Assembly: GCA_014904985.1 (NCBI GenBank)
Contig: MU128947.1
Span: forward strand, 245,269-309,268
Direction: 5' to 3'
Origin: Hydnum rufescens UP504
Lineage: Eukaryota; Basidiomycota; Agaricomycetes; Cantharellales; Hydnaceae
DNA length: 64,000 nucleotides
In this document: piece by piece, positions 30,335-64,000 of the stretch
Numbering within the stretch: position 1 is the first letter of the stretch
How the letters are laid out: the number at the start of each line of letters is the position of its first letter
The notes under the pieces: generated by a model
Told to the model about the DNA's origin: nothing
The model's input: only the letters and a program-made list of their open reading frames with translations
The model's database searches: none
Program-made: the position numbers and the translations under genes

Positions 30335-33300
30335 CTAATCGCGAAGGGCTTCCGCTTCCTTTTGTGCCAGCAGCGCATCCTCGTGACATCCCACATCTGA
30401 ATAGCGACGAGAAAGAGCGGCGAGGGACCTTCCGAGGTCGCGAGAAAAGACGGCAGGAAGATCTGTTGCAAGGTGTCTGTATAAGCGCACTGCTTCTTGC
30501 ATGGTCAGAAGAGCCTCAGGCATGCGATAGAGAGTGGAAAGAAGATCGGAAAGGTGGGTGAGAGCGTGGGCTAAACCTGGATGAAACATAGCAGGCCGCT
30601 GAGCCGCCAGTGGGCGATAGATGCTCACTGCATCCTCGATCACCTGGAGTGCTTCCTCATGACGGCCAAGGCTCGAGACACAATAGGAGAGGCCACGGAG
30701 TGACAGAGCAAGATGCGGAAGGAATACATTGGGTTGTTCTGCGGCAAGGGGACGATAGATGCTCATGGCTTCTTCAATCATCTGGAGTGCTTCCTCACGA
30801 CGGCCAAGATCCAAAAGGCAATTGGAGATGCCACGGAGCGAGGCAGCAAGATTTGGGCGGAATACGGTCGGTCGTTCTGCGGCCAGGGGTCGATAGATGC
30901 TCACGGCATGCTCAATCATCTGGAGGGCTTCTTCACGGCGACCAAGAGCCAAAAGACAATTGGAGATGCCATTAAGCGAGGTAGCAAGATTTGGACGGAA
31001 TACATTGGGCCGTTCGGTGGCAAGGGGCGATAGATGCTCACTGCATCCTCAATTATTTGAAGTCCCTCCTCACGGCGGCCAAGATCTGAAAGACGAAGAG
31101 AGAGATCGAGGAGTGACGCAGCAAGATTTGGACGAAATACATTAGGTCGTTCTGCGGCAAGGGAGCGATAGATGCTCACGGCATCCTCAAGCATCCGGAG
31201 TGCTTCCTCACCACGACCAAGAGCCGAAAGGCAATTGGAAATGCGATAGAGTGACAGAGCAAGATTTGGACGGAATACATTTGGTCGTTCTGCAGCAAGG
31301 GGGCGATAGATGCTCATGGCATCCTCAATCATTTGGAGGGCTTCCTCATGACGGCCAAGAGCCGAAAGGCAATTGGAAATGACACAGAACGACAGAGCAA
31401 GGTTTGGACGGAATACATTGGGTCGTTCTGCGGCAAGGGGGCGATAGATGTTCATTGCATCCTCAATCATCTGGAGTGCTTCCTCACGACGGCCAAGAGC
31501 CGAGAGGCAATTGGAGATGCGACAGAGCGATTGAGCAAGATTTGGACGGAATACATTGGGTTGTTCTGCAGTAAGGGGGCGATGGATGCTCACTGCATCC
31601 TCAATCATCCGGAGTGCCTCCTCATGGCGGCCAAGGGCTGATAGGCAATTGGAGATGCGACAGAGCGATTGAGCAAAATTTGGACGGAATACCTTGGGCT
31701 GTTCTGTGGCAAGGGGCGATAGATGCTCACCGCATCCTCAATCATCTGAAGTGCCTCCTCATGGCGACCAAGAGCCGAAAGGCAATTGGAGACGCGACAG
31801 AATGACTGAGCAAGATTTGGACAGAATACATTGGGCCGTTCTGCGGCAAGGGGGCGATAGATGTCCACAGCATCCCCAATCATTTGGAGTGCTTCCTCAT
31901 GGCGGCCTAGATCTGAGAGACAAAGAGAGAGATCATGGAGCGAGGAAGCAAGATGTGGATGGAATGCATTGGGCTGTTCCGCAGAAAGTGGGCGATAGAT
32001 GGTCACGGCATCGTCAATTATCTTCAGTGCTTCCTCGTGGCGGCCAAGATCTGAAAGACGACAAGAGAGATCGTGGAGTGAGGCAGCAAGATTTGGACGG
32101 AATGAATTGGGCCGCTCCGCGGCAAGGGGGCGATAGATGCTCACAGCACCCTCAATCGCCTGCAGTGCTTCCTCACAGTGGCCAAGGTGTGAAAGATGAA
32201 GAGAGAGATAATCGAGCAAGCGAGCAAATTTCGGACCGAATACGTCGGGGCGTTGTGCCATAAGGGGACGATAGATACTCACAGCATGCTCAATCATCTG
32301 GAGTGCTTCCTCTCGGCGGCCAAGATCCGAAAGACAATTGGCAATGCGACAGAGCGAGAGAGCAAGATTTGGCCCAAATACATCAGGTCGTTCTGCAGCA
32401 AGGGGATGATAGATCTTCAAGGCTTCCTCTATCGTCCGCAGCGCTTCCTCACGGCGGCCAAGATGTGAAAGACAATTAGAGAGCCAATGGAGTGAGGCAG
32501 CAAGATTTGGCCGGAATATATCGGGTTGTTCTGCGGCGAGGGGGCGATAGATGCTCACGGCATCTTCAATCATCTGGAGTGCTTCCTCGCGGCGGCCAAG
32601 ACCTGAAAGACAATCGGAGATGCCATGGAGTGATGCAGCAAGGTTGGGACGGAATACACGCGGTCGTTCTGTCGCAAGGGGATGAAGAATGCTCACAGCA
32701 TCCTCCATCAGCTGGAGTGCTTCCTCATGACGGCCGACATGACAATGACAATAGGAGAGGTGGTGAAGTGAGGCAGCAAGATTTGGACGTAATGCAACCG
32801 GTTGCTCCAATGCTAGTACCCTGCACATACTTACAGCCTCCTCAGCGGGACGGAGCGCTTCCTCATGCCGACCAAGCTTTGCAAGTGCCACGGAAAGGTT
32901 GAAGACAGAACTAAGAAGGCGTGTCGGGTCTCGTCCCGTCCGGCACAGCTCTACTACTGTGGTCTGCACCTTGAAACCCTCCTCCAGAACACCCAAATCA
33001 AACAAATTCAACGACAAGTTTGTTAATTTGTTTGCCAGGGTTGCCGCATCAAGTTTCGTCCGAGGAGTCTTATGTAGTTGATTCAACAGTTGCATTGTCG
33101 CCAATATTGTTTCGCGAAGTTGCGGCATTTGGTTCCCGGTCTGCTGGTGATGAACTTTCCATGTCGACATTGGCTGACGGTGAACACCCCATCTCGCAAG
33201 CCACAAGCGAACACTCCATTTCACAATCCGCCGATTGGGTGGTGGGGAAATCGCAATATCCGGCAAGATACCACCAATCTCCACTGTCAGCTCTGAGATC

Positions 33301-38361: not shown

Positions 38362-41300
38362 CTAACCGCGAAGCGCTTCCGCTTCCTTTTGCACCAGCAG
38401 CGCATCCTCGTGAGATCCCATATCTGAATAGCAATGAGAAAGGGAAGCAAGGGATGCCACAAGGCCACGAGAGAAGACAGCGGGATATTCTGCTGCAAGG
38501 CGTCTGCATAAGCCCACTGCTTCTTGCATGGCCAGAAGAGCCTCAGGCAGACGATGAAGACTAGAAAGAATATCGGAAAGGTTGATGAGAGAGTGGGCTA
38601 AAGCTGGGTGAAATACAGCAGGTTGCTGAGCCGCAAATGGGCGATAGATACCCATGGCCTCTTCAATCATCTGGAGTGCTTCCTCATGGCGGCCAAGACT
38701 TGCAAGACATTTGGAGATCTGATAAAGCGAGGCAGCAAGGTCCGGATGGAACACCACGGGTCGTTCCACTGCAAGGGGACGACAGATGCTCGCAGATTCC
38801 TCAATCATCTGGAGTGCTTCCTTATGGCGGCCAAGACCTCCAAGACATTTGGAGAGTTGTTGAAGCAAGGTAACAAGATTTGGATGGAATACATGGGGTC
38901 GTTCCACTGCAAGGGGACGATAGATGCTCACGGCTTCCTCAATCATCGGGAGTGCTTCCTCATGGCGGCCAAGATCAAAGAGATGAATGGAGAAGCACCA
39001 AGCGAGCGAGCAAGATCTGGCCGGAATACATTGGGTTGTTCTGCCGCAAGGGGGGCGATAGATGCTCACAGCATCTTCAATCATTCTGAAGTGCTTCCTC
39101 ATGGCGGCCAAGACCTCCAAGACATTTGGAGATCTCATAAAGAGAGCAGCAAGGGTTGGACGGAATACATCAGGTCGTTCTGCGGCAAGGGGATGATAGA
39201 TGCTCACAGCATCCACAATCATCTGGAGTGCTTCCTCACGACGGCCAACATGTGAAAGATAATAGGAGAGGGCATGAAGCGAGGCAGCAAGATCCGGATG
39301 GAATACATTGGGTCGTTCCAATGCAAGGGGACGATAGATGCTCACAGATTCCTCAATCATCTGGAGTGCTTCCTCATGGTGGCCAAGACCTCCAAGACAT
39401 TTGGAGAGTTGTTGAAGCAAGGTACCAAGATTTGGATGGAATACATGGGGTTGTTCCACTGCAAGGGACGATAGATGCTCACGGCTTCCTCAATCGTCGG
39501 GAGTGCTTCCTCACGGCGGCCGAGATTAAAAAGATGGATGGAGAGGACACCAAGCGAGCGAGCAAGATCTGGCCGGAATACATTGGGTTGTTCTGCGGCA
39601 AGGGGGCGATAGATGCTCACAGCATCCTCAATCATCTGGAGTGCTTTCTCGTGGCGGCGAAGACCTCCAAGACATTTGGAGATCTCATAAAGAGAGGCAG
39701 CAAGATTTGGACGGAATACATCGGGTTGTTCTGCGGCAAGGGGGCGATAGATGCTCAAGGCATCCTCAATCTTCAGGAGTGCTTCCTCATGGCGGCCAAG
39801 AAATGAAAGACAATAGGAAAGGCCATGGAATGAGTCAGCAAGATCTGGGCGGCATACATGGGGCTGTTCCACGGCTAGTTGGCGGTAGATCCTTACGGCC
39901 TCCTCAATAGCCTGGAGTGCGTCTTCCCGGCGGCCAAGGCCGAAAGACATATAGAGAAGTTGCGGAGCAATGCAGCAAGAGTTGGGCTGGATACACCGGG
40001 TTGCTCCGCTGCTAGTATTCTGCACATACTTAAGGCCTCCTCAGTAGGACGGAGTGCTTCCTCATGCCGACCAAGTTTTACAAGTGTGGTGGAAAAGTTC
40101 CAGAGAGAACGAATAAGGCTTCGGGCGTCTCGTCCCGCCCGGCACAGCTCTACCACCGTGGTCTGCACCTCAAAAGTCTCCTCCAGAACACCCAAATCAG
40201 ACAAATTCAGGGACAATTCTGTCAATTTGTTTGCTAGTGCTGCCCCATCAAGTTTCATCCGAGGGGTGTTTTGTAGCTCGTTCAAAAGTTGCAACGTCGC
40301 CGACACCGTTTCACGAAGTTGTCGCATTTGGTTCCCAGTTCGCGGGCGATGGGTTCCCCATGTCACCACTTGCCGCCGGTGAACACCCCATCTCACAAGC
40401 CGCCTTTTGGGCTGTGGGGCTACCGAAATATCCGGCAAGATACCCCCAATCTCCACTGTCAGCTGTGAGATTTGACCAGTGAGATATGAGACATGCCGGT
40501 CGTGCCCAGTACGTAGTACAGTCATCGCTGGAGATCTGTTAGATTCGAATTAGTGTCTTATGTGCGCCTTGAACCGAGGTTTGGAAGTACCTTCGGCCTG
40601 AGGGTGTAGGTATTCCCCGTATCCCAAACTCCTCCAATCGTCCCTGCACAGCTACTCCAATATGCTCGAACACTGCCTGGCCCGCCGGAAGCTGGAAGAG
40701 ATCATGCATGCTGGCCGAAGAGATCGAAGGCTAGATAATGGTATTGTTGTTACCCAGGAACAGAGCTCTAGAACGCAAATTGCTTACGGCAGGGTCATTG
40801 ACGGTCTCCACTGGTCGTTCCCCATCACCTCCCTCAGTTAAGAGTACTGATGGACCAGGGTGTGCACTCGCATCCGCTCTGTCCACAAAATTCCCCACAC
40901 CTATCAGCGTAAGGATCTTGATAACAAGCTCAGTATGACTTCGCTTCAAGAATGACGGTGTTAGGCACTCACCTGAAAGGTGCTGAAGCAATCCATCAGA
41001 TTGTCTGTGTGCCTTGATATTGCAACTTTAATCTCCGCACTCTTCATGTAGGCGCCCAGCACTCCCAAACGGGACCAGCGCTCCGTGTCTTCTTGGATTG
41101 ACATCAAGTTGCTACCACCGAAAGAGATGGATCTGAGCGAAGAGGATATGCAATGACAGTGGAGAACCAACCTCTTTAGAGCAAATAGCCTGGCCGCGGT
41201 TGGCGTACCATCAAGAATAGGCACCTTAGTCATCCTCAAATCGTCCACCAGAGATTGGAGAAATTTCAGGACCCGGTTTATAAGGTGTGCACAGTCATCC

Positions 41301-43924: not shown

Positions 43925-46116
43925 CTGATATCATCCCCAGATCTGCCCGGAAGCCTTCGAATTTTGGGCATGGCAAAGATTTAGTAAATATATCCATGGT
44001 CATTTCGTCGGTAGGGCACCAATAGACTGCCACAATTCCGCATTGTATTGTTTCCCGAATAAAATGGAATTGGACGTCGATATGTTTGGATCATGCATGG
44101 AATTGTGGGTTTCCCGCGAGTGCGATCACCGATTGATTATCGATATGTAATTCCGATGGTCTGGGTTGGCTAAATCCGAGAGCATTGAGGAAGTTCCTCA
44201 GCCATACTATCTGTTTCATAGCTAGAGTAGCAGCAATATATTCTGCCTCCATTGATGATGGGACTACGATCAATTGTTTCTTGGATGTCCATGAGATTGC
44301 TCTGCCACCGAGTAAGAATGTGTATCTGGAGATTGATTTCTGATCAATTTCATTTGAAGCCCAATCCGCATCCGAGAATCCGGATATGGCTATGGTGGTG
44401 CTTCCTCCGCATTGATTGTACATAATTCCCATATCCTTAGTCCCTTGGAGATACCTAAAAAGGTGTTTGATGGTGTGCCAATGCTCATTGGATGGATTAT
44501 GAGAGAATTGCGATAGGGATTGTATTGCGTAAGTGATATTGGGATGTGTTCTGATAGCAGCGTACATGAGTGAACCAATGGCTGCTCGGTATAATTCGGG
44601 TCAGTTGAATTTATTGGCATTGGTCATGACATGGAATTGAATGGATGCCGGTAGGGGTGTAGCAGCTGTGCGCTTTGCGTCATATTGAATCTTTCTAGGA
44701 TTTTCCGGAGATATTGACCCTGGGAAATTGTAGTTGATTTCCTTTCTCGGTTCCTATTTATTTCGATTCCCAAGAGTAAACATGGTATCCCCTGGTCCAT
44801 TGTCTCGAATTCCTGCTTTATTTCATTTTTAGCAGTGTCCAGTTGTGCTTTGGATGTCGATAGAAAGATGACATCGTCGACCCATATGGCAATAATGTCG
44901 AATTCTTTGCCGTTGTGCCTTATGTAAACACAGTGATCATTCGGTAACCAGGTATATTTCAAGGTACCCATGATATAGGAATTGAATTTCGTATTCCATT
45001 CCCGTCTGGACTGTTTGAGTCCATAGAGTGTATGGAGTAGTCAGGCGACTCTGTTGGTCCCGTCCTCATATCCTTCTGGCTGACACATGTATATGGTCTC
45101 CTGAAGATCTCCATTTAGATATGCACCTCGGATGTCCATTTGTCCCATTTCGAGATCAAGGATGGTGGCGATGGCGATTAGATTATGTAATGAATCCATT
45201 CACATTACAGGTGAGAATGTTTGGTCGAAATCTTGACTGGGAATCTGTGTGAATCCCTGAGCAACTAATCGGGCTTTGAATCGGGATAGATTCTCATCGG
45301 CATCAAACTTCTTTTTGAATGTCCAGCGATTTCCGATAGCGTGGCAATTCGGAGGTAAGGGTTTGAGTGTCCAAGTGCCCTTTTCCTGGAGCATCTGTAA
45401 TTCACTTTCGATAGCCTTTTCCCATTGTGGCCAGTCCAGTGACTTTTTGGCATCCTTCAGGGTATTAGGCTCATCAAATATCGAGCTCTCCCTGGATATT
45501 AGTGATCTCAAATGCTGAGTCACTTCCTGAGTCGGATTTTCTAATTCGTTGGGTTTATGCTGTTTGGGCCGGTATGATGTCTTGCCACGATGCCAGATTA
45601 TGTAATTTAGCGTAGTTTATTGTTTTATGCTCACACAAGCCTCGTCGAGTGGGCAGCGCTGTAGATTCTGGCAGGTTAGACGGTATTGAATCGCTTTGAA
45701 TGGGATCTGGTGCCGGATGCGGAGAATTGATGTCATTGTCGGGTTCCTGTGGCTCCCCCTCAATTTGAGCATTTTCCGGGTTTAAATTTGTATTACCGGG
45801 AGTGAGTGGAATGTCAAGTTCCACTTGGCGAGGGGTGTTGGGGTTGTCATTGAATTTGAAGTTCCGCGAGATTAAGATCTTGCATGTTTTTGGATTATAA
45901 TACCGAATTGCCCTTGAGCCATCTTCAATGCCGACAAAATTAAATTTGTTTGCTTTTGGATTGAGTTTAGATTGGTCGGCCTCGTCCAATACCCATACAT
46001 CGGACCCAAATTCCCTGAGGTTAGATATGTCAGGTTTGTCTCCCGTCCATGCCTCCATCGGGGTCATATTATGTAATGCCCATGTAGGACTCTGCGCACG
46101 GTGTAAGCAGGAAATG

Positions 46117-46873
46117 AAGGGAGGAATCCAGCCACAGTCCACGATATGGAATCGGAGAACGAAAAGAAGGGACCACGGGATCAATCCGAATATTGAGGCT
46201 CAAAGGAATGAAGGTCTTTGGTGATAGAAATCTAATGCTGTAAGCAACACCTGCCCAAGCAATAGAATAAAGAATGAATATGGGTCACAAAACCACACCC
46301 TAAGGCTCTCNNNNNNNNNNNNNNNNNNNNNNNNNNNNNNNNNNNNNNNNNNNNNNNNNNNNNNNNNNNNNNNNNNNNNNNNNNNNNNNNNNNNNNNNNN
46401 NNNNNNNNNNNNNNNNNNNNNNNNNNNNNNNNNNNNNNNNNNNNNNNNNNNNNNNNNNNNNNNNNNNNNNNNNNNNNNNNNNNNNNNNNNNNNNNNNNNN
46501 NNNNNNNNNNNNNNNNNNNNNNNNNNNNNNNNNNNNNNNNNNNNNNNNNNNNNNNNNNNNNNNNNNNNNNNNNNNNNNNNNNNNNNNNNNNNNNNNNNNN
46601 NNNNNNNNNNNNNNNNNNNNNNNNNNNNNNNNNNNNNNNNNNNNNNNNNNNNNNNNNNNCTGTTGAAGTGCCGCGGATACATAATAAATTGGCTCGTGCG
46701 CAAACAAAGGAATGGCGCAGATTCATGGGTATTAGACGTATGGGATTCAGGCTTGTTCTCGAGTGAATGACGGCGTGGGAATTGACGTCCGGATTGACAT
46801 AGAAAATGGTTCATTTGTTTGAAAGATTGTCCTTGGATAGGGTTTGTACGTAGTAGGGATTTGTCCCTCCAAC
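46117..46873 (-). mobile_element. LTR-like insertion inside copia integrase (contains assembly gap)
   Basis: The integrase frame breaks at AYIR (about 46874) and resumes at RAQSPTWAL (about 46116). The intervening piece starts TGTTGGAGGGAC on the minus strand and ends CTGCTTACA, with CCGT on both sides as a likely target duplication. TG..CA ends and its size suit a solo LTR. A related end recurs at 57240-57663. About half of the insertion is unknown sequence (Ns). Confidence 0.6.
46311..46659. other. Assembly gap (Ns)
   Basis: About 349 unknown bases. The true length may differ from the run of Ns. Confidence 0.99.
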
Positions 46874-49009
46874 AACGGATATATGCCACATAGGATATGG
46901 CCTCGGCCCATAGACTTTGGGGCAGAGCCTTGGCAATTATCATTGCCCACGTGAGTTCTATTAATGTCCTATTAGGTCGCTCGGCCTTTCCATGTTGTTG
47001 AGGCAAGTGAGGGGCAGTAAATTTGACTTCGATTCCTTTTTCGGAAAGCCATTCATTTAGTTCGCGATCGATGAATTCGCCCCCATTATCAAATTTGAAT
47101 GCTTTGGGAAGTTGGTTCAATTGGTCTGGATCCATGTGACATAATTCTGGATTTGTCATCATGCCTTGGACTTCTCCTTTAGGATTTAATGGTGATTCGC
47201 CTTGAATGGTCATCAATAAAAGAGATGTAATATTGCGATCTGCCAATAGAGGTGGTCCTGGCTGGTCCCCCACAGATCTGAGTGTGTGAGATCACCTGGT
47301 TTCTCAGCTCGGTTTCCACTTGATTTAGGAAAGGGCTGATGATGTAATTTCGCTTGAATACAAGCTTTGCACAATAGGATCTGACTTGAATTGGGGTCAA
47401 TAGAGATTCCCGCTACCATATCGGAATCAACTAGGGTTTTGAGCCCTGAAATTGATAAATGGCCGAATCTTTTGTGGGCTTCGTCCCATGTGATTGCTGG
47501 GGATTTCGACGTAGTGTAATTTGTAATCTCCGTCATCCGTGCATGGCCTTCCAATACGTATACTTGGTGATGTAGTCGTCCTTCTGCGATAGGTAGTCCC
47601 TGAGGACTAATTATAACCGCTTTTCCCCCTTTGTGCCTGACCTCTCCACCTGTTGAGTCTATTTTTCCCATGGACAACAGACAATTTGTTGCATCTGGTG
47701 AATAAATGACGTTACGTAAGGTGATCGCTGTCGTTTTGCTGTTGAATGGGGTTTCGATGATGATGGTGCCTTGGCCTTTTCCTTCGAGTTGCATTTGCTC
47801 CCCAACTCCTGAAATGGATTTGATGCCAGGTATAAATTGAGTGAACATTTCCTGTTGTGTGGCGATATGGGAAGTGGTTCCTGAATCGATTAACCAATCA
47901 TTTTTGGAGAATAAGGGGTCGAATGATTTCGTATTGAATACGATTTCAGGGTCCATTGAGATGCCCTGCTTCGTAGACTCGGGAGTTGAGCCATTCACCT
48001 CCTTTTCCTTCTTTTCTGTCGCGGTCCCTGTCCCTCTTTTCCTCCTCCTTTGGCCCAACATTGTTCCTTCGTATGGCCGACTTTGTGGCAATTAGAGCAT
48101 GTAGGCCCAGTAGCACGTTTGCCCCAATTTGGAATTTGTACCAAATTGGCAACTTCATTTGAATTGGATTTATCACGATGGTGGCAATCTTCATCAATGA
48201 TTAACGTAATCAATTCTGATGATTTGACTTTCAGTTCGCTGGCTTTGGATCTGAAATATGATGATGTAAACGTGTCCCATGACCAGCCCATGCTGTAAAT
48301 TTTTTGCAAAAAATGCGGTAACTTACTGTAGAAAGTTACATTAAAGTACGGTAACTTGCAGTAACTTTTTTGCATCAAGTTTTGCATCAAGCTCGGTAAC
48401 CCCATTTCATTAAACCTTTTGCATCCAGGCTATTATTTATTATTCCAGTTACATAATATATATTTTATAATATGAAAATCCCTAAATGCAGTAATTAGAT
48501 AGCCCAATAAGGAAGGGTGCATTAGATAATATCCCATAAATACTTGGATAATATCCAGTTACATAATACACTGATTCCTATTGAAAAAAAAGCTAAATGC
48601 GGAAATTAGATGAACTACATCCAGAAAAATTTTCCCCATCCAGCCCAATGGGGGCCCAGGACCAGGGGGTGGTGCCTGGGATGGATGGATGGACCCCTAG
48701 GGACCCTGATACAGTGAAAAAACCAGGCCAGGGCCACTGGTTAGTGCCTGAAACAATGAGAACAGTAAAAACAGCACTGGAACCACTGGAAATTGCCAGA
48801 AAATAACCGCCAGGCGGACATGTCTGAAATTTGGCACATGATTAGAGACTGTTAGGACGCAAAATCATATCAAAATTTCAGCCCAATCCATGCATTACAT
48901 ATGGAGATATGGGCCAAACATGTTTAAACATTAAAAATTGATTCCTCCCCCTATAAAATAGCTGGGGACTTGAAAATTGACACAGAGAAAGAGGAGAGAA
49001 ATAGTCAAA

Positions 49010-51600: not shown

Positions 51601-53045
51601 GTACCCATCGATCACAGCTGAAAAAACCAGGCAGGCCCACTGTTAGTGCCTGAAACAATGAGAACAGTAAAAACAGCAATGGAACCACTGGAAATTGCGA
51701 AATAATGCTGGGCGGACGAGTCTGAAATTTGGCATAATTGAGAGACTATTAGGATGCAAATCATATCAAAATTCAGCCCAATCCATGCATTACATATGGA
51801 GATATGGGCCAAACATGATTAGACATTAGAGATTGATTTTCCTCATAAAATAGCTAGCTCGAAAATTCACACATAGTATGAGGTCACTATTAAGTAACTA
51901 TGTGCAAAAATCAGCCCAATACATGAGCCTATAAGAGGGGGAACTGGGCAGGGGGGACCAGAACCACCGGAAGTTTCCAGAAACCTAAGCGCTGGGCGGA
52001 CGTATCTGCATGTTGGGGCCACATGTATTTTTTTCCGGGGCATCCATTTCCGAGACTGTACATTCCTAGTGCCTAGGGCACTTACTCTTGAATGTAGGCG
52101 ACGAATTAGGCTTGCATTTTATCTTTGGCACCTTGATTACTTCATAATGACTAGTGGAGAGTATCAGCCAAAGCTTAGTGAGTTATACAATTCATTTACA
52201 AGGGTCCAACTATGGCTAATTTTTTCTTCGTATGTACGCGCGGAGGAAATCAATTTTAATGTGTAACTTGTTTGGCTGCTATCTCCAAAGAATCATGGAT
52301 TGGGCTGAAACTTGTGATATGATTTTTGGTCAATAGTCTCTTTATATGTGCCAAATTTCAGACTCGTCCACTCAGTTCCTATTTTCCGGCAACTTCCGGT
52401 GGTTCCAGTCCCCCTGCCCAGTTCCCCCTCTTTAAGTGGATGGATTGGGCTGATTTTTGCACATGATTACTTCATAATGACATCATCATTGGTGTAAATC
52501 TTCAAGTGCCTAGCTATTTATAGGGGGAGGAAATCAATTTTTAATGTGTAAACTTGTTTGGCTGATATCTCCCTAAGTAATGCATGGATTGGCTGAAATT
52601 CTGATATAATTTGCATCCTAATAGTCTCTAATCATGTGCAAATTTCAGATACGTCCGCCAGCGCTTAGGTCTGGAAACTTCCGGTGGTTCTGGTCCTCCC
52701 TGCCCAGTTCCCCCTCTTTAGGCTCATGTATTGGCTGATTTTGGCACATAGTTGCTTCATAGTGACCTCATACTATGTGTGAATTTTCGAGTCTAGCAAT
52801 TTATAGGGGAGGAAATCAATTCTAATGTCTAATCCTGTTTGGCCCATATCTCCATATGTAATGCATGATTGGGCTGAAATTTTGATATGATTTGCATCCT
52901 AATAGTCTCTAATTATGTGCCAAATTTCAGACTCGTCCGCCAGCACTTATTTTTCGGCAATTTCCAGTGGTTCCATTGCTGTTTTTACTGTTCTCATTGT
53001 TTCAGGCACTAACCAGTGGCCCTGGGCCTGGTTTTTTCACTGTAT
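51600..53045. repeat. Internal inverted and tandem subterminal repeats
   Basis: Blocks with GCCTGAAACAATGAGAACAG, GGAACCACTGGAAATTGC, CATTACATATGGAGATATGG and GGCGGACGTATCTG run forward at 51610-52015 and inverted at 52350-52700 and 52700-53045. A further forward copy is at 48700-48990. Together they make nested palindromes around about 52200 and form the long inner arms of the element. Confidence 0.8.
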
Positions 53046-53456
53046 CAGGTCCCTAGGGGTCCATCCATCCATCCCAGGCACCACCCCCTGGTCCTGGGCC
53101 CCCATTGGGCTGGATGGGGAAATTTTTCTGGATGTACTGTAATTTCCGCATTTAGGCTTTTTTTCAATAGGAATCAGTGTATTATGTAACTGGATACCAT
53201 TTGGGAATCATTATATAATATTTTTAGTCACCCCAAACCCAGTATGGAAATTATCCTAAATAGGAAATGATTGGATGCAAATCCATTAAGAACCCAACTG
53301 AGCCATTGGCTGATATTAAAATGCCCGGGTTACCACAGCTGATGCAATAGCCAACCTGATGCATCAAAAACATGGTAATGGTAACTTACTGTAATCTTTG
53401 CAAAGCTCTCATGGTAACTTACTGTTTCCAATGCAAAAAGGCTACATCATCAGGTG

Positions 53457-53954
53457 CCATGACTCGGGGAGTGAGGTGACCAATAGCGTTGTGAAATCGT
53501 CATCTGCAATTGGGTGTCCCATTATATTGAGATTTTCTTTTGCCCTTTGGAAGGCAGCAATATGGTCAATTATAGGGGTATTTTCAGTAGCAACTGTACG
53601 GAATAATTTGTGCTGTGTGGCGAGCATGCCGAGGATCCCTTTAGGTTCCTTTGTTTCCCGTAGTTGTGTCCACATTTTGGCAGCGGTCTTGGCACCACTT
53701 AGGTGCACGAGCTTGGAATCACCGACAGCTAATTGTAGTAAAGACTGGGTCTGTAGGTCCCTGGCATTCCATTCTTTCTTCAGGGACTCATCGTCAGGAC
53801 ATGGGTATGTGCTGTCAACGAATTTGAATAGGTCCGCCAAAGTTAGTAATGCCGTGACCCTGGTCTTCCATGGAACCCAATTATTGCCTTTCAATTGATC
53901 AATCCGGGTGAAGCCATTTAGGGTGTTCTTATCGATTGTGCCGTGTTCGGACAT
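53457..53954 (-). pseudogene. Copia gag N-terminal part
   Basis: Minus-strand frame from ATG 53954 (MSEHGTIDKNTLNGF) with INxLKGxNW-type start (RIDQLKGNNWVPWKTRV), WNARDLQTQSLLQLAV and MWTQLRETKEPKG, ending at LVTSLPESW where the 5.2-kb element enters. This is the UBN2/Retrotran_gag arrangement of copia Gag. It continues at 48283. Up to the break the frame is open. Confidence 0.85.
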
Positions 53955-53999
53955 AGGAAATTGGAATGAGTGTTTATTGAGCGAGTGGTGCTGATAATG

Positions 54000-54212
54000 T
54001 GTTAAGAGTGGATGTCTCTTAGCTAGAAACACTTATTATTGTCAAGCAATATGCTTGGTATTTATATACAGAATGTAATACTAGAATGTTCATTTAAGTC
54101 TGTACTCCACGGTCCACTGACTATGCCGACTGCGCTGGCTAATTTAGCTGTGTTCCAATGTTTCCGGAATGTTTCCGATTTATTTCCTTATCGGGATGTG
54201 CTCCATCCAATA
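54000..54212 (-). repeat. Copia 5' LTR
   Basis: 213 bp, 205 identical to the left LTR. Its inner edge abuts CATTATCAGCACCAC on the minus strand, where the tRNA primer-binding site should lie. Confidence 0.92.
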
Positions 54213-57663: not shown

Positions 57664-58680
57664 ACCGGATGTCTTCAGTGAGGTCAACTTTGCACCAAGC
57701 CAAGCTACATCCACTATTGGCTCTTCGCATTTGCCAACCACCTTCCCAGGCTCCGAAGAGTGGGACCATGAGTCTGCAGGGAAAGACACTGATTCAGATG
57801 TGGATTATGACATTGAATTGCCCTCCAATTCTCATGAACATAATGACACCCCCACAAACCTCTCCACATTCATGTCATTGGCCACTTCCCACACCCCCAT
57901 GTCAATTCTGAATAATATTACCACATGCCTCTCCAAAAAGAACCTTGTTGCAATTGCATGTGAGCTACATGACTGCAACACCAAAGCACAAGCTGCTGTG
58001 GAGATGGCCAATGCACATGCCATTATTTTGGGCATCAGTACACGGAGTTGCAGAAACAAGTCAATGCAAAAATGAATGCACCCAAGATATCATGTCAGTC
58101 ATTCTCAACAAATGCGCACATGCTGAATACAACTGAAGCTTTGGAGGAGATTGCAGCAGAGAAGGAGGCTGCAGTTTTGGAAGCAGAGAGGAAGGAGATT
58201 GAAAAACAGGAAAGGGAAAGGAAGGCAAAAGAGGCACGTGATATGAAGGAAAGGAAAAAGGAACTAGCCCAACAAGCATGGGCAGAAAAGGCTCATCTTG
58301 CTCAGGTGGAAAAGGACGCAAAGGCTGTGGAAAGGACAGCAGCAAAGGAGGCAAAACTTTGTGCAAAGGCAGAGATTGCAGCTGCCAGGGCCACTGGAAA
58401 GACAGTCACTGGGAGAAAGAGAAAGGTCAGTGAGATTGAAAAGGGTGACAAGGATAAGGAAAATGAGGGATCCAGGGGGGGCTCACCACCAAAACAGCGA
58501 CGTACCCAATCCCTGCAACCTGTGGTTTCATCCCCACAACAATCAATCCTACAGCACTCCCCTCACCACCAACCTCAACCAAGACCTTGGCCAAGACCTT
58601 GATGGGGACAAGCCAATACCAGCTCAACAGAATTTCGTACAGAATCTAGTTCATCTTGGCCACTGCAATACATGATAGAC
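57664..58680 (+). pseudogene. Pogo-like transposase C-terminal region (second copy)
   Basis: The sequence reads PDVFSEVNFAPSQA, the usual start of the region after the DDE_1 domain. It continues with an acidic stretch (DTDSDVDYDIELPS), LSTFMSLATSHTPM, LSKKNLVAIACELHDCNTKA and a highly charged helix (EEIAAEKEAAVLEAERKEIE, then ERERKAKEARDMKERKKELA), with a basic KRK motif and Pro/Gln-rich end. The frame changes once near 58060. This C-terminal module is characteristic of Agaricomycete pogo-type transposases. Its own N-terminal part is absent here. Confidence 0.7.
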
Positions 58681-58819
58681 CAGATCACAGTATATCCAGG
58701 CCCACCACCACCTCTGGTTCACATCTCTGAGTTTGGCAAGGCTCCAGATGAAGATGCAGCAAGAGTTCTGTTGGCACTAAGCAGTGGAACTATGGTTGCT
58801 GAAGTTAGGTTACAAGCCT

Positions 58820-58960
58820 GGAAAACCTGAGTTCAAACCTGAACCTGACCCAAGTCAGGTTCCATTGGGGTCAGGTTTCATGTAATTTTCCTCAGGTCAG
58901 GTTCAGGTTTTGGGCCCCCATGTTTTCAGGTTCAGGTTAGGTTCAGGTTTAACCCAGGTT
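58820..58960. repeat. Interspersed CAGGTT-type short repeat
   Basis: Roughly ten copies of CAGGTT or its complement AACCTG occur within 140 bp, partly as tandem TCAGGTTCAGGTT. The same hexamer forms the tips of the element that starts at 59074. Confidence 0.7.
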
Positions 58961-59330
58961 CAAACCTGAAATCATGAGCCCCTTCAGACATGAGAAATAT
59001 CTGAGCTCAACACTGATTTTAACCATAATCCAGAATGAGTCATCAATTCTGGCAAGTTCCAGAATTATGTAAGCAGGTTTTTTGGTGGAGAAATAGGTTA
59101 CTTTGAAGTGAAGTTAAACCAGCCTGGTCAGCCAATTATCAGTATCTAACTAGATACTTCAAGGGTTGCATTTATATGCTCTAACTAGATATCAGACCCA
59201 GGGGGCCCCCAGGGGCCCCTGCAATTCAGTCGAGGGGGCCGGTCAAGCAGCCCAGGGGCCCCTGGGGCCCCTAGCCATTAGGATTATTTATTTATTATTT
59301 ATTCATTTATTTATTATTATTATATACACT

Positions 59331-60769
59331 AGGCTCGCCCAGTGGGGCTCACCCATGCACCCAAGAAGAGCAGCCAGAGGCTGCTCTTCTTGCGCAATGT
59401 AGCTAAGGAAAATAAATACCAGGGGGACTCACCGTATATAGGGCCACTCGTTGGGCGCATTCGGTTCTCGTCTGGTGAATTGCCATTTGTCGCCTCGCCG
59501 TTTGGCGTGTTGCCGTCCATTGTGTCGCCCTTTGGTGTGTTGCCATTTGGGCCCTTGTTCGTTTTGCGGGTTTTCATTGTGGCCACAATCTAGAGTAATA
59601 AAAGATATATTAGTACAAATATCCAAAGCAGTGCAAAAAGAGCAGCTTTCGCTGCTCTTTTTGCGCGGGTGTAGCTACTGGGGTGCGGGGACTCACCTTA
59701 AATCGTACCACACACCCGCTACGGCGGGTGTGTGGTACCTGGGGTCCTCATTTGGCGCATTTGCGTGTCTCGCATTGGTGCGTGTCGCGTTGGTGTGTGT
59801 TGTGTGTTGCGTGTTGCGTGTTGCGTGTTGCGTGTTGCGTGTTGTGTGTTGCGTGTTGTGTGTCGCGTGTCGTGTGTCATGTGTCGTGTTGGCGCGTGTC
59901 GCATTACCGCTTGGTCCCTCATTGTTTCGTGGGTTTTCGTCGTGTCTTGGACAAGTCAACCTAGAATAATAAACGAATCGTTAGTATGAATATTCAAAGC
60001 AACGCAAAAAGAGCAGCTCATGCTGCTCTTTTTGCGCCACAAGAATCAGAAATAAAAAATAAAAATAAAAACTTACCTTGGAGCACCCTACAACCGCTGT
60101 GGCGGGTGTAGGGTACTGGGAGCGCAGACTCTGGCTCGTACGTATGGGTTCTCCCTGTGCCCCGTCGTTCGGGCGTCGATAAGGGGGGGTACGGGGGGTT
60201 CTGCATCGGTATTGGTTCGCGAGAATGGTTAATACCTATAAAATAATATTGTTAAATTAGTTAAAAATTAAACACCACGCAAAAAGAGCAGCTTTCGCTG
60301 CTCTTTTTGCGTGGTTGTAGCTACTGGGGGTGGGGACTCACCTTATATGGGACCACACACCCGCCGTGGCAGGTGTGTGATTCCTGGGGCCCTCATTTGG
60401 CGTGGTCGCGTCCTCGTTTGGCGCGTTGCCATGGGTCGCGTCCCCATTTGACGTGGTGCCGTATTTCGCATCGTTGCCGTGTTGCTGTGGGTCGTGTCCT
60501 CTTTCGGCGCGGTGCCGTATCTCGTGTCGTTGCCGCGTCGCATCCTCATTTGGTGTGCTGCCGTATTTCACGCATTGGCCCCTTGCTGTGGGTTGCGTGT
60601 CGGGCTGCCATTTGGGTTCTCGTTATTTCGCGGGCTATCGTCGTGTGTTGAACGAAGCCTCAATCTAGAATAATTAAAGTCGCGTTAGTAAAAAGTTTCA
60701 AAGCAGCGCAAAAAGAGCAGCTTTCGCTGCTCTTTTTGCGCCGTCGTACCTACTAGCAGAAAAACTCAC
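59331..60769 (-). repeat. Left arm: five intron-like hairpin segments
   Basis: Minus-strand segments 60769-60665, 60341-60236, 60076-59961, 59696-59590 and 59432-59331 (102-116 bp). Each starts GTGAGT or GTAAGT and ends TTCTAG, TATAG or CCTAG; several have a TACTAAC-type branch motif. Each contains a hairpin, core GCAAAAAGAGCAGC paired with GCTGCTCTTTTTGC, at about 60705-60741, 60277-60312, 60004-60036, 59631-59666 and 59360-59393. The exon-like parts between them (157-323 bp) end with a second hairpin just before the donor. Joined frames contain stops (for example in the second exon from the centre), so a protein product is doubtful. Confidence 0.75.
59790..59892. repeat. GTGTTGC heptanucleotide minisatellite
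   Basis: About 13 units of GTGTTGC/GTGTCGT variants in tandem inside an exon-like module. On the minus strand they give a low-complexity His/Asn/Thr/Arg-rich frame. Confidence 0.85.
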
Positions 60770-60864
60770 CTTATGACCACACACCTGCGGTGGCGGGTGT
60801 GTGGTCGCGCGCTTGCCTTTCCAGGCGGTTGTTTGTTGTGGTTTCGGAGATGAGAAGAAAGATC

Positions 60865-61518
60865 CGAAATTCAATGCCGGCAATTGCCGATACTCAAGAA
60901 GCGCCCAAGTGCTGACGCTACAAGCACAATACAGATTGATAGCAAGCATGTAGATGTGGAATATAGAATATACAATAAATATTTGTTTAAAAATGTGAAG
61001 AAGAGGATAAAAATGAGCCAGAGCTCAATAAGGGACAATATGCCTCATTGAAAAGTGGATTAGATCACTTCTATGCATCAGAATTGGCCCAAATTTAAAT
61101 ATAGTGATGGTATATATATACCCTACATGGGAAACCAATTATATCAGACGATTCTGGCATTTTTCTATTTTTCACGCCTTCAATTCCCTAAATAGGGAAT
61201 TGAAGGCGTGAAAAATAGAAAAATGCCAGAATCGTCTGATATAATTGGTTTCCCATGTAGGGTATATATATACCATCACTATATTTAAATTTGGGCCAAT
61301 TCTGATGCATAGAAGTGATCTAATCCACTTTCAATGAGGCATATTGTCCCTTATTGAGCTCTGGCTCATTTTTATCCTCTTCTTCACATTTTTAAACAAA
61401 TATTTATTGTATATTCTATATTCCACATCTACATGCTTGCTATCAATCTGTATTGTGCTTGTAGTGTCAGCACTTGGGCGCTTCTTGAGTATCGGCAATT
61501 GCCGGCATTGAATTTCGC
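60865..61518. repeat. Central near-perfect palindrome, 326-bp arms
   Basis: 60865-61190 is the reverse complement of 61193-61518 with a 2-bp centre (AA) and one mismatch (CG on the left arm against CA on the right, near 60916). Both arms contain a frame reading inward and ending KKRIKMSQSSIRDNMPH, and a frame reading outward starting MLAINLYCACSVSTWALLEY. The outward arrays begin directly beyond the arms, so a bidirectional promoter here is possible. Confidence 0.9.
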
Positions 61519-61636
61519 AACTACACAGCCACACCCAGCAACAGAACAATGACGACGATGACCCACAACCGGACAACGACGACGACCCCACAACCACACA
61601 ACCACACACCCGCTGCTGCGGGTGTGTGGTCATAAG

Positions 61637-62724
61637 GTGAGTTTTGTCAGTAGATACAATAGCGCAAAAAGAGTAGCACAAGCTACTCTTTTTGCGCCAC
61701 TTTGAACTCTTATACTAACATAGCTTTTATTATTTTAGATTATGGCCTAAGGCCTGAGATGAAAACCCACCGCACGATGAGGGCCCGAACGGCAAGAGCC
61801 AAACCAAAAGAAACGATGAAGCGCCCAATGGGTGGCCCCAGGAACCACACCCGCTGCGGCGGGTGTGGTACTATTTAAGGTGAGTGTTGCCCCCCCCCCA
61901 ATAGATACAGTCGCGCAAAAAGACCAGCAAAAGCTGGTCTTTTGCGCTGAATTATAACCTTAACTAACATATATTTTGATATTCTAGGTCACGCTTTGAA
62001 CCACCATCCGCACGAGCGCCAACCGAAACTACACCAAGTGAAAACCCGACGAACACCCCACCGAACGATAAACCAATGCAAACCAGACACCCGCCACGGC
62101 GGGTGTCTGGTTATACATTCAAGGTATGTGTCCCCAATGGTGCAAAAAGAGCAGCGAAAGCTGCTCTTTTTGTGCTACTTTGAATTTCTTTACTGATTCC
62201 TTTTTAATTCATTCTAGGCCATCAAATGAAACCCCCCCAAACGACGAGGCCCAATCGGCCAGGCCCAGCGGCAACACGCAAACAGAAACCACGCGAAACG
62301 AAAACACGAGATGTGGCCATGGACCACCCGAGTGGCCGTGCGAACCACACACCCGCTGCGGCGGTGTGTGGTTCTATACAAGGTAAGTGTACCCCCAACA
62401 GCGCAAAAAGAGCAGCAAATGCTGCTCTTTTTGCGCTGGTTTTACTTTATCTAACTAATACATCCATTATTCTAGGCTGCCACAAATGAAGATCGGCGAA
62501 ACGAAACCCCTCCGAAACGATAACCTGCCCGCAAAGTCGAACGATGACACACCAAATGAAAACATGAGACGACGCCAACCCCAGATGAACCACACACCCG
62601 CAGAAGCGGGTGTGTGGTAATTTCAAGGTAAGTACGATCACACAAAAGGAGCAGCGCACGCTGCTCCTTTGCGTGGCTTTCTGTTTTTTTTTTTCTCTCT
62701 TTCATTAACATTATTTATCTCTAG
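61637..62724 (+). repeat. Right arm: five intron-like hairpin segments
   Basis: Plus-strand segments 61637-61738, 61880-61987, 62124-62217, 62383-62475 and 62628-62724 (93-108 bp). Donors are GTGAGT, GTGAGT, GTATGT, GTAAGT and GTAAGT; acceptors are TTTTAG, TTCTAG, TTCTAG, TTCTAG and CTCTAG. Hairpins lie at about 61663, 61914, 62141, 62401 and 62640. Stem variants are GAGTAGC/GCTACTC, GACCAGC/GCTGGTC and GGAGCAGC/GCTGCTCC. Exon-like lengths are 141, 136, 165 and 152 bp, so the frame is not preserved. Beyond 62724 two or three more modules remain (hairpins near 62985 and 63193) but with degenerate donors. Confidence 0.75.
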
Positions 62725-63484
62725 GCTTTAATCTCAGCCTACAAACCCCGTCAACCCCAAATAAAGACCCACCACCCCGCCAAAGACACCTGCGAGAATG
62801 GTAACCCACCCGCCAGACGAAACCCACGAGAACGGAAACCCGCCAACCCCCTAAGTGACGACCAGCCCCCGTACCAAGTACGAACCGCACGACCGCGGTA
62901 CCAAATAGTACCACATACCCACTTAGGTGGGTGTGTGGTACTACAAAGGGGTTTTTTTTTTAAATTTCGATATCTTCAACGATGCGAAGGGAGCAGCGCA
63001 AGCTGCTCCTTTTGCGTCACTTTGAATTTTTTTTACTAACTAGGATTCAAATGGAAGGACCCAAAATGCAACCCGTGCCTCGCGCTCAACGGTGAAGTAC
63101 CAAGCCATGCCCCCGGTACCACACACCCACCCAAGCGGGTGTGTGGTGCTACTAGGTATTTTTTTTTTGGAATTTCTATATGTACAGTGATGCAAAAGGA
63201 GCAGCGCAAGCTGCTCCTTTTGCGTGCCTTCGAATTTTTATTTATTAATGTATGGTATTATTGTAGAATCCAGCCGGAGCGCCCAAAACGACGACCCACC
63301 CCAACAGCAACCCGCCCAACAGTGAAGGCCATGCCCCGTACCACACACCCATCCAAGCGGGTGTGTGGTGCTACTAGATAGTTTTTTTTTTAAATTTCTA
63401 TGGACAGTACCACACAAGCGGGTGTGGTAAGTAGTTTTTTTTCTTGGATTTCTACAGACAGTACCACACCCCAGTGGGTGTGGT

Positions 63485-63620
63485 GAATTTTTAAATAAAT
63501 AAATAAATAAATAATACACAACTCAGTAAGAATGAAACATGGAAATGCCAAATGAAACCCTGCTGACTGGGGGTAGCAGTGATAATAAATAAATAAATAA
63601 TCATAAATGGAACATATTAT
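63485..63620. repeat. AAAT microsatellites
   Basis: Tandem AAAT units at 63491-63514 and 63582-63600, flanking a short AT-rich stretch. Confidence 0.8.
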
Positions 63621-63875
63621 CCCGGACAAGCGTGTATGGCCCACTGTGCAAGTCTGAGATTAGGTGACTGAAGAAGGCACCTAACCCAATATATTGAAGT
63701 TCTGTGGCCAGTCTAAGTCCCACACAGGGGCCCCTGGGGGCCCCTGCCTTGATCACGGAAATCAGGTTAGCCGGCCCCAGGGGCCCCAGCATCAAAACCT
63801 CTAGTTAGACTATATAAATGCAAGGCTTGTAATATCTAACTAGACCTACATTTGTGGCTGACTGAGTTGAGTTAA

Positions 63876-63960
63876 ACATAAAACCTCATACAAAGTTTAT
63901 ATTGACTATACATAGACTATGTATAGTCAATATAAACTGTTCATGAGGTTTTATGTATAA
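63876..63960. repeat. Hairpin beside the right terminus
   Basis: ACATAAAACCTCAT then GTTTATATTGACTATACATA pairs with TATGTATAGTCAATATAAAC and ATGAGGTTTTATGT, giving arms of about 40 nt with a small bulge. It lies just inside the right terminal inverted repeat and has no counterpart at the left end. Confidence 0.85.
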
Positions 63961-64000
63961 CTTCACTTCAAAGTAACATATTTCTCCACAAAGGAACCTG

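Follow-up and report, generated by a model that had tools for sequence, protein, structure and literature searches.

The 64,000-bp stretch analysed here, referred to as the window, comes from the basidiomycete Hydnum rufescens UP504 and represents positions 245269-309268 of contig MU128947.1 (C39) of a 63.2-Mb genome in 539 contigs. It contains a mobile element of 4,750 bp at 59120-63869 that is best explained as a non-autonomous DNA transposon generating 8-bp target duplications, whose cargo would be two transcription units, divergent and noncoding, rich in introns and maintained by selection. A probability of roughly 0.55 is assigned to this reading. The ends, the duplications, the copies, the palindromic core and two outward-pointing rows of hairpin-bearing intron-like segments are read directly in the DNA.

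The boundaries were compared across copies; the element begins with CAGCCTGG and ends with GAGTTG. A preliminary description, prepared from the letters alone, had placed the ends at inverted CAGGTT motifs (59074 and 64000), but these bound a separate palindromic repeat of about 169 bp that was split by insertion of the element. The features of the boundary region, in window coordinates, are as follows.

59120-63869, no strand: whole element, defined by its boundaries and 8-bp duplications across copies and by the spacing of end pairs
59112-59119, no strand: left target-site duplication AGTTAAAC
63870-63877, no strand: right target-site duplication AGTTAAAC
59120-59133, plus strand: left terminal inverted repeat CAGCCTGGTCAGCC; the 20-bp end recurs across the genome
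63856-63869, minus strand: right terminal inverted repeat, minus-strand reading CAACTCAGTCAGCC; a 19-bp pattern recurs across the genome
59074-59119, no strand: left part of the interrupted palindromic repeat, outside the element
63878-64000, no strand: right part of the interrupted palindromic repeat, outside the element

The two terminal inverted repeats agree at 10 of 14 positions. Seventeen copies were checked at both ends (a first set of 13 that includes the window copy, one on contig C56 and three more, with partial loci left out), and the 8-bp duplication is perfect in 11 of them. Loci are cited by L numbers: L038 matches at 7 of 8 bp, L037, which contains a long N run, shows no match, and four copies are unreadable since the right end is missing or masked. 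A truncated neighbour copy on C56 has a flanking 8-mer without a partner on the expected side, and a search for duplications of 6-9 bp at the ends of L039, L040, L042, L043 and L044 gave nothing convincing. Terminal repeats and duplications of fixed length, as expected of a non-autonomous DNA transposon with terminal inverted repeats, are both present, as are the long inverted arms with internal repeats that characterize foldback-like elements.

Of 141 candidate places for the right 123 bp of the interrupted repeat, 40 were scored, and besides the window copy these include 39 further matches. Each of the 39 is overlapped by a reverse match, offset by about 46 bp, which, judged from coordinates without fetching the sequences, indicates unbroken palindromes of about 169 bp and thus empty sites. 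The CAGGTT-ended repeat is itself present in at least 40 copies, the others being 96-99% identical over the 123 bp searched, and is probably a young miniature element.

The element belongs to an abundant family. Its left end (20 bp) occurs at 214 places in the genome at up to two mismatches (reversed control, 0), and the 19-bp pattern near its right end at 177 places under the same threshold (control, 0). When the first 100 listed places of each end were paired, 34 pairs stood in the right order within 25 kb, and 27 of the 34 span 3.4-5.7 kb. The search for other copies that had been proposed at the outset also recovered 3,507 exact occurrences of the intron-hairpin core, along with 907 of the exon hairpin (described below); both reversed controls gave 0. 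The 50 core places listed, which cover C1 and part of C2, fall into 12 clusters, and extrapolation from these clusters suggests several hundred arrays in the genome. The hairpin pattern was also found in five stretches of a viral collection, at one place each, and in at least 119 stretches of bacterial and archaeal genomes; 78 of the 80 viewed hold a single place and two hold two places.

The centre of the element is a palindrome, as had been described, but it extends to 663 bp rather than 326 bp.

60860-61522, no strand: central palindrome with TATA-like motifs, a putative divergent promoter, from aligned half-palindromes of 8 elements

Its core consists of 139-bp arms that are 100% identical around a 2-nt centre (61052-61331) and is continued by 194-bp arms at 98%. 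Among the eight aligned half-palindromes, five have a TATATA-like run and seven a ATTTAAATTTGGGCCAAT-like stretch (two of them an exact one); L040 has neither in its aligned part. A search of 58000-64000 against Rfam returned 19 matches, mostly microRNA models on the central palindrome, none of which reached the gathering score.

Ten intron-like segments of 93-116 bp, five per strand, point outward from this centre, as stated in the preliminary description, and each of the ten carries a hairpin, as also stated there. The strict GTRAGT...YTAG pattern given for all ten fits only eight: R3 (62124) starts with GTATGT and L2 (60236) ends with ATAG. The segments of the right (R) and left (L) arms and the accompanying hairpins are listed below.

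61637-61738, plus strand: intron R1, hairpin 61660-61699
61880-61987, plus strand: intron R2, hairpin about 61915-61945
62124-62217, plus strand: intron R3, donor GTATGT, hairpin 62136-62179
62383-62475, plus strand: intron R4, hairpin 62397-62440
62628-62724, plus strand: intron R5, hairpin about 62643-62672
60665-60769, minus strand: intron L1, hairpin 60703-60744
60236-60341, minus strand: intron L2, hairpin 60274-60315
59961-60076, minus strand: intron L3, hairpin 60003-60036
59590-59696, minus strand: intron L4, hairpin 59629-59668
59329-59432, minus strand: intron-like segment L5, with a hairpin, without branch consensus, no exon hairpin seen
61601-61630, plus strand: exon hairpin upstream of R1
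61841-61872, 62081-62112, 62342-62374 and 62589-62618, plus strand: further right-arm exon hairpins
60772-60809, minus strand: exon hairpin upstream of L1
About 60351-60384, 60085-60114 and 59705-59738, minus strand: further left-arm exon hairpins
62906-63371, plus strand: outer right units, hairpins retained, donor consensus lost

The segments have the consensus signals of spliceosomal introns at the sequence level, namely a GTRAGT donor, an ACTAAC-type branch site (median distance to the YAG, 21 nt), and a YAG acceptor. Most 5' splice sites are flanked by an exon hairpin on one side and an intron hairpin on the other. The exon hairpin is of the type ACCACACACCCGC-N4-GCGGGTGTGTGGT and is followed, in the eight window units from which the spacing was taken, by 2 to 11 nt and AAG|GTRAGT; the intron hairpin is of the type GCGCAAAAAGAGCAGC-N4-GCTGCTCTTTTTGCGC, stands after a spacer and precedes a T-rich stretch. 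For two single units, the predicted fold is much more stable than that of shuffled sequence (z of -8.3 and -6.3).

The association of splice signals with stems holds beyond the window. Without using hairpins, a scan for donor, branch site and acceptor picked up 164 segments in 30 fetched loci, compared with one segment on both strands of the first 59 kb of the window. Of these, 139 are distinct, although a few represent alternative donors that overlap and one or more are false (L019:4049-4169). Stems of 12 bp or longer lie inside 126 of the 139, whereas a single base shuffle of each segment leaves 9 of 139 with one, and an exon stem is also present in 105. Base composition separates the two kinds of sequence, with a T content in exons of 0.11 in six near copies and 0.15 in eight diverged loci versus 0.35 and 0.36, respectively, in introns.

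The stems might instead be DNA-level structures, that is, cruciforms or transposase binding sites maintained by template switching, with the splice motifs as by-products. Such an account would agree with the 98-100% symmetry of the central palindrome, and PMC3573991 reports secondary transposase binding sites for the internal repeats of Galileo. The stems covary: an alignment of 42 introns contains 37 stem cells changed on both sides, where shuffles give 9.0 and slid controls 5-11. (The 42 rows are the 51 introns below 88% identity, minus 12, plus three with a proper donor; most of the 12 were left out for a GTGTGT in the exon hairpin misread as a donor, and one was false.) Within the 13 innermost pairs of the intron stem, 35 Watson-Crick replacement cells of the listed pair types stand against 22 wobbles, a ratio that suits pairing in DNA. 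However, donor, branch site and acceptor were detected without reference to the hairpins, exons and introns differ in composition, and the predicted RNA strand shows an excess of G-U over A-C pairs, an asymmetry for which a constraint at the DNA level offers no reason. In hairpins located by arm consensus and not by pairing, G-U outnumbers A-C by 66 to 32 in 85 distinct intron hairpins (p 0.0004) and by 36 to 21 in 49 distinct exon hairpins (p 0.03), both p-values being too small because the hairpins share descent. Structure at the DNA level is thus considered an improbable explanation.

Comparison of older copies indicates which parts have been retained. The window copy was compared by alignment with four far copies (L023, L026, L036 and the one on C56); identity, for which the contribution of the aligner was not controlled, is 0.55-0.62 in exons and 0.54-0.68 in intron filler, and 0.84-0.85 in intron hairpins, 0.67-0.86 in exon hairpins, 0.72-0.84 in the palindrome and 0.67-0.875 in splice signals. 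This pattern bears on the proposal that the array is a relic, a noncoding gene for intron-hosted RNA, similar to a small-RNA host gene, that was captured and duplicated in inverse orientation in the ancestor and is now carried without use, or whose hairpins are small-RNA products. Noncoding exons, a hairpin in each intron, the near-neutral decay of near copies outside CpG-type sites (described below) and the matching of R1 and L1 to each other's relatives all agree with this proposal. Plain descent, however, does not leave hairpins and splice signals at 67-88% identity and exons at 55-62%, and no Rfam family reaches the gathering score in the region searched. A relic of either form is therefore regarded as unlikely, though somewhat less so than structure at the DNA level.

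Near copies are informative in a different way. In ten of them (numbered within L010-L027), 903 of 1670 substitutions relative to the window copy are CpG-type transitions, as expected of methylated repeats. Outside CpG-type sites, splice signals, hairpins, exons and introns alike have identities of 0.977-0.990, and the palindrome 0.949, so selection is readable from older splits only. A difference between exons and introns in near copies had been considered as evidence and was dropped, as it mostly disappears once CpG-type sites are excluded.

The introns also have places of their own. With hairpins masked, introns from nine diverged loci were compared with those of the window. The centre is known in five of these loci, and seven of their eight introns lying no more than 450 bp from it matched R1 or L1 best, the exception being in L039. 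Runs in outward order from L1 (or R1) through L2, L3 and L4, with gaps, occur in L023, L034 and L043. A satellite array, with interchangeable homogenized units, was considered and rejected, since the introns of diverged copies mostly correspond by position. The preliminary description had named a lack of motif conservation beyond this locus, with the tandem units a mere satellite, as grounds for abandoning its proposal; instead the motifs occur genome-wide and intron order is mostly kept. R1 and L1 resemble the same relatives, suggesting that the two arms probably go back to an ancient inverted duplication.

It had further been suggested that the element is a source of introners, with single units leaving the array and creating introns in genes. 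The units do carry complete splice signals. However, all four lone hairpin places (C1:334480, C1:444894, C2:7608 and C2:623909) proved to be arrays or fragments of arrays, in a small sample from a listing limited to C1 and part of C2, and the duplications seen flank the whole element. The check for lone introns with the same hairpin therefore gave no support to this suggestion, which appears very improbable.

Slightly more remote still is the idea of a decayed protein-coding element whose exons formerly encoded a repeat protein. The exons are built of short degenerate repeats, and the plus strand, which is antisense to the left arm, has a stop-to-stop frame of 175 residues at 59442-59969. Nevertheless, spliced frames of the window copy, the only copy spliced in silico, are not longer than those of shuffled exons (20% and 94% of shuffles are as long); exon indels in ten near copies are multiples of three in only 15 of 108 cases, and exon lengths are not in one phase. 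L036 has no frame of 150 residues. No transposase was recognized in the copies looked at, in which shorter frames were not family-searched and P-type transposases were not searched for. The window copy thus seems to lack a coding signal of its own, including a transposase.

How such an element might work can be outlined. The palindromic core would serve as a divergent promoter from which each arm is transcribed outward. Because the arms are related, this would yield two RNAs of the same sense, and no double strand would arise from the element itself. The spliceosome would remove the introns. The two hairpins that enclose the donor, one in the exon and one in the intron, may keep it open and may draw donor and branch site closer together, as in known yeast introns. 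Many efficient introns would raise RNA accumulation and keep the core active. In Cryptococcus, also a basidiomycete, most genes tested accumulate less mRNA when their introns are removed, and the intron effect is cumulative (PMC3744415); an array of good introns could thus raise RNA yield. An active core, in turn, may help the element to persist and to be mobilized by a transposase supplied in trans.

Several observations weigh against a selected, spliced cargo. Transcription, splicing and RNA function are predictions from the sequence, and the benefit of the intron array to the element is a guess. In far copies the splice signals are no better kept than the hairpins, and the identities may be affected by the lack of an aligner control; recent copies decay almost neutrally, with all parts other than the palindrome about equally conserved. 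Apart from its overstated significance, the G-U excess could also come from a strand-biased mutation process. Intron order is imperfect: two outer right introns of L036, one of L044 and one each of L034 and L043 are out of place, as are both introns of L039, which match weakly. The outer right units and L5 are poor introns. Finally, at least one frame is open in 23 of 36 and 11 of 20 internal exons, for which chance may suffice as the exons are short and T-poor.

Parts of this organization are familiar from other systems. Intron-rich noncoding host genes of small RNAs have noncoding exons and a structured RNA in each intron. The element resembles them in both respects but is mobile, has hairpins in its exons as well and contains no family at the Rfam threshold. 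In certain yeast introns, a stem between the donor and the branch site shortens the distance between them; the stem of the element differs from those of such fungal introns in being common to most introns and paired with an exon hairpin. Foldback and Galileo (PMC3573991) likewise have long, internally repetitive inverted arms, copies without transposase and target duplications (7 bp in Galileo, 8 bp here), but the repeat unit of the element is an exon/intron cassette with hairpins, and its introns are ordered. Introners are mobile and have complete splice signals, with target duplications and inverted repeats in some families (PMC9860276), whereas the element moves as a whole array and no single-intron insertion was found in the small sample above. 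In frame and mobility it is of a known kind, a non-autonomous foldback-like DNA transposon, and the original proposal of a foldback-like element with divergent exon/intron cassettes as its repeat unit is supported. A literature search of titles and abstract openings, mainly open-access, named no element with such a cargo, in which noncoding intron arrays are ordered and hairpins flank the donor on either side.

An autonomous partner with the same ends was not found in the loci looked at. Duplications of 8 bp are shared with hAT and Zisupton (KDZ) transposons (PMC12730594), but no such transposase was recognized in the copies of the element looked at. KDZ domains are extremely abundant in this genome: 150 of 584 candidates were scored, and all listed matches lie above the cut-off. 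Among those listed are matches near element ends (e.g., on C142, C130, C123 and C480) and one on C56, outside the intact copy at 73598-78060 and near the truncated copy; two KDZ loci that were read lack the ends of the element. The one hAT family examined looked like a partner: it ends exactly at the start of an element fragment in L030 (C331), abuts a copy in L034 (C217) and shares a stretch with a copy in L031 (C152). This family was rejected as a partner: it has its own end, TATGGTTGC, and also occurs without the element (L035). A preference of the hAT family for insertion beside the element is possible.

Two stretches, C106:133200-144000 and C48:105000-116850 (L032, L033, L047 and L048), have several kb in common, and the common part stops exactly at the right end of the element, with differing flanks. 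Neither the left end nor a duplication was found there, and eight frames gave no Pfam match; the stretch is a candidate for a larger relative of the element.

Other repeats occur elsewhere in the window. Two tandem arrays of 138-bp units (30612-32793 and 38642-39938) encode 46-residue repeats on the minus strand that look TPR-like by eye. Pieces of a copia-type element lie on the minus strand at 44091-48091 and 53442-54032, the latter being a gag domain and the rest having been recognized by eye; this region includes a masked stretch. A 281-bp tandem repeat is present in 2.6 copies at 52242-52975.

Tentatively, the family may be regarded as a noncoding-RNA transposon in which the selected cargo would be spliced, noncoding hairpin RNA transcribed both ways from a palindromic promoter, with splicing, not a protein, keeping the family abundant and active. 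It is usually assumed that elements lacking proteins require nothing beyond their ends. Should this family depend on its intron arrays and hairpins in order to thrive, splicing would be a selected trait in a selfish DNA element, and the H. rufescens genome would offer a large natural set of related introns for measuring the role of stems around the donor.

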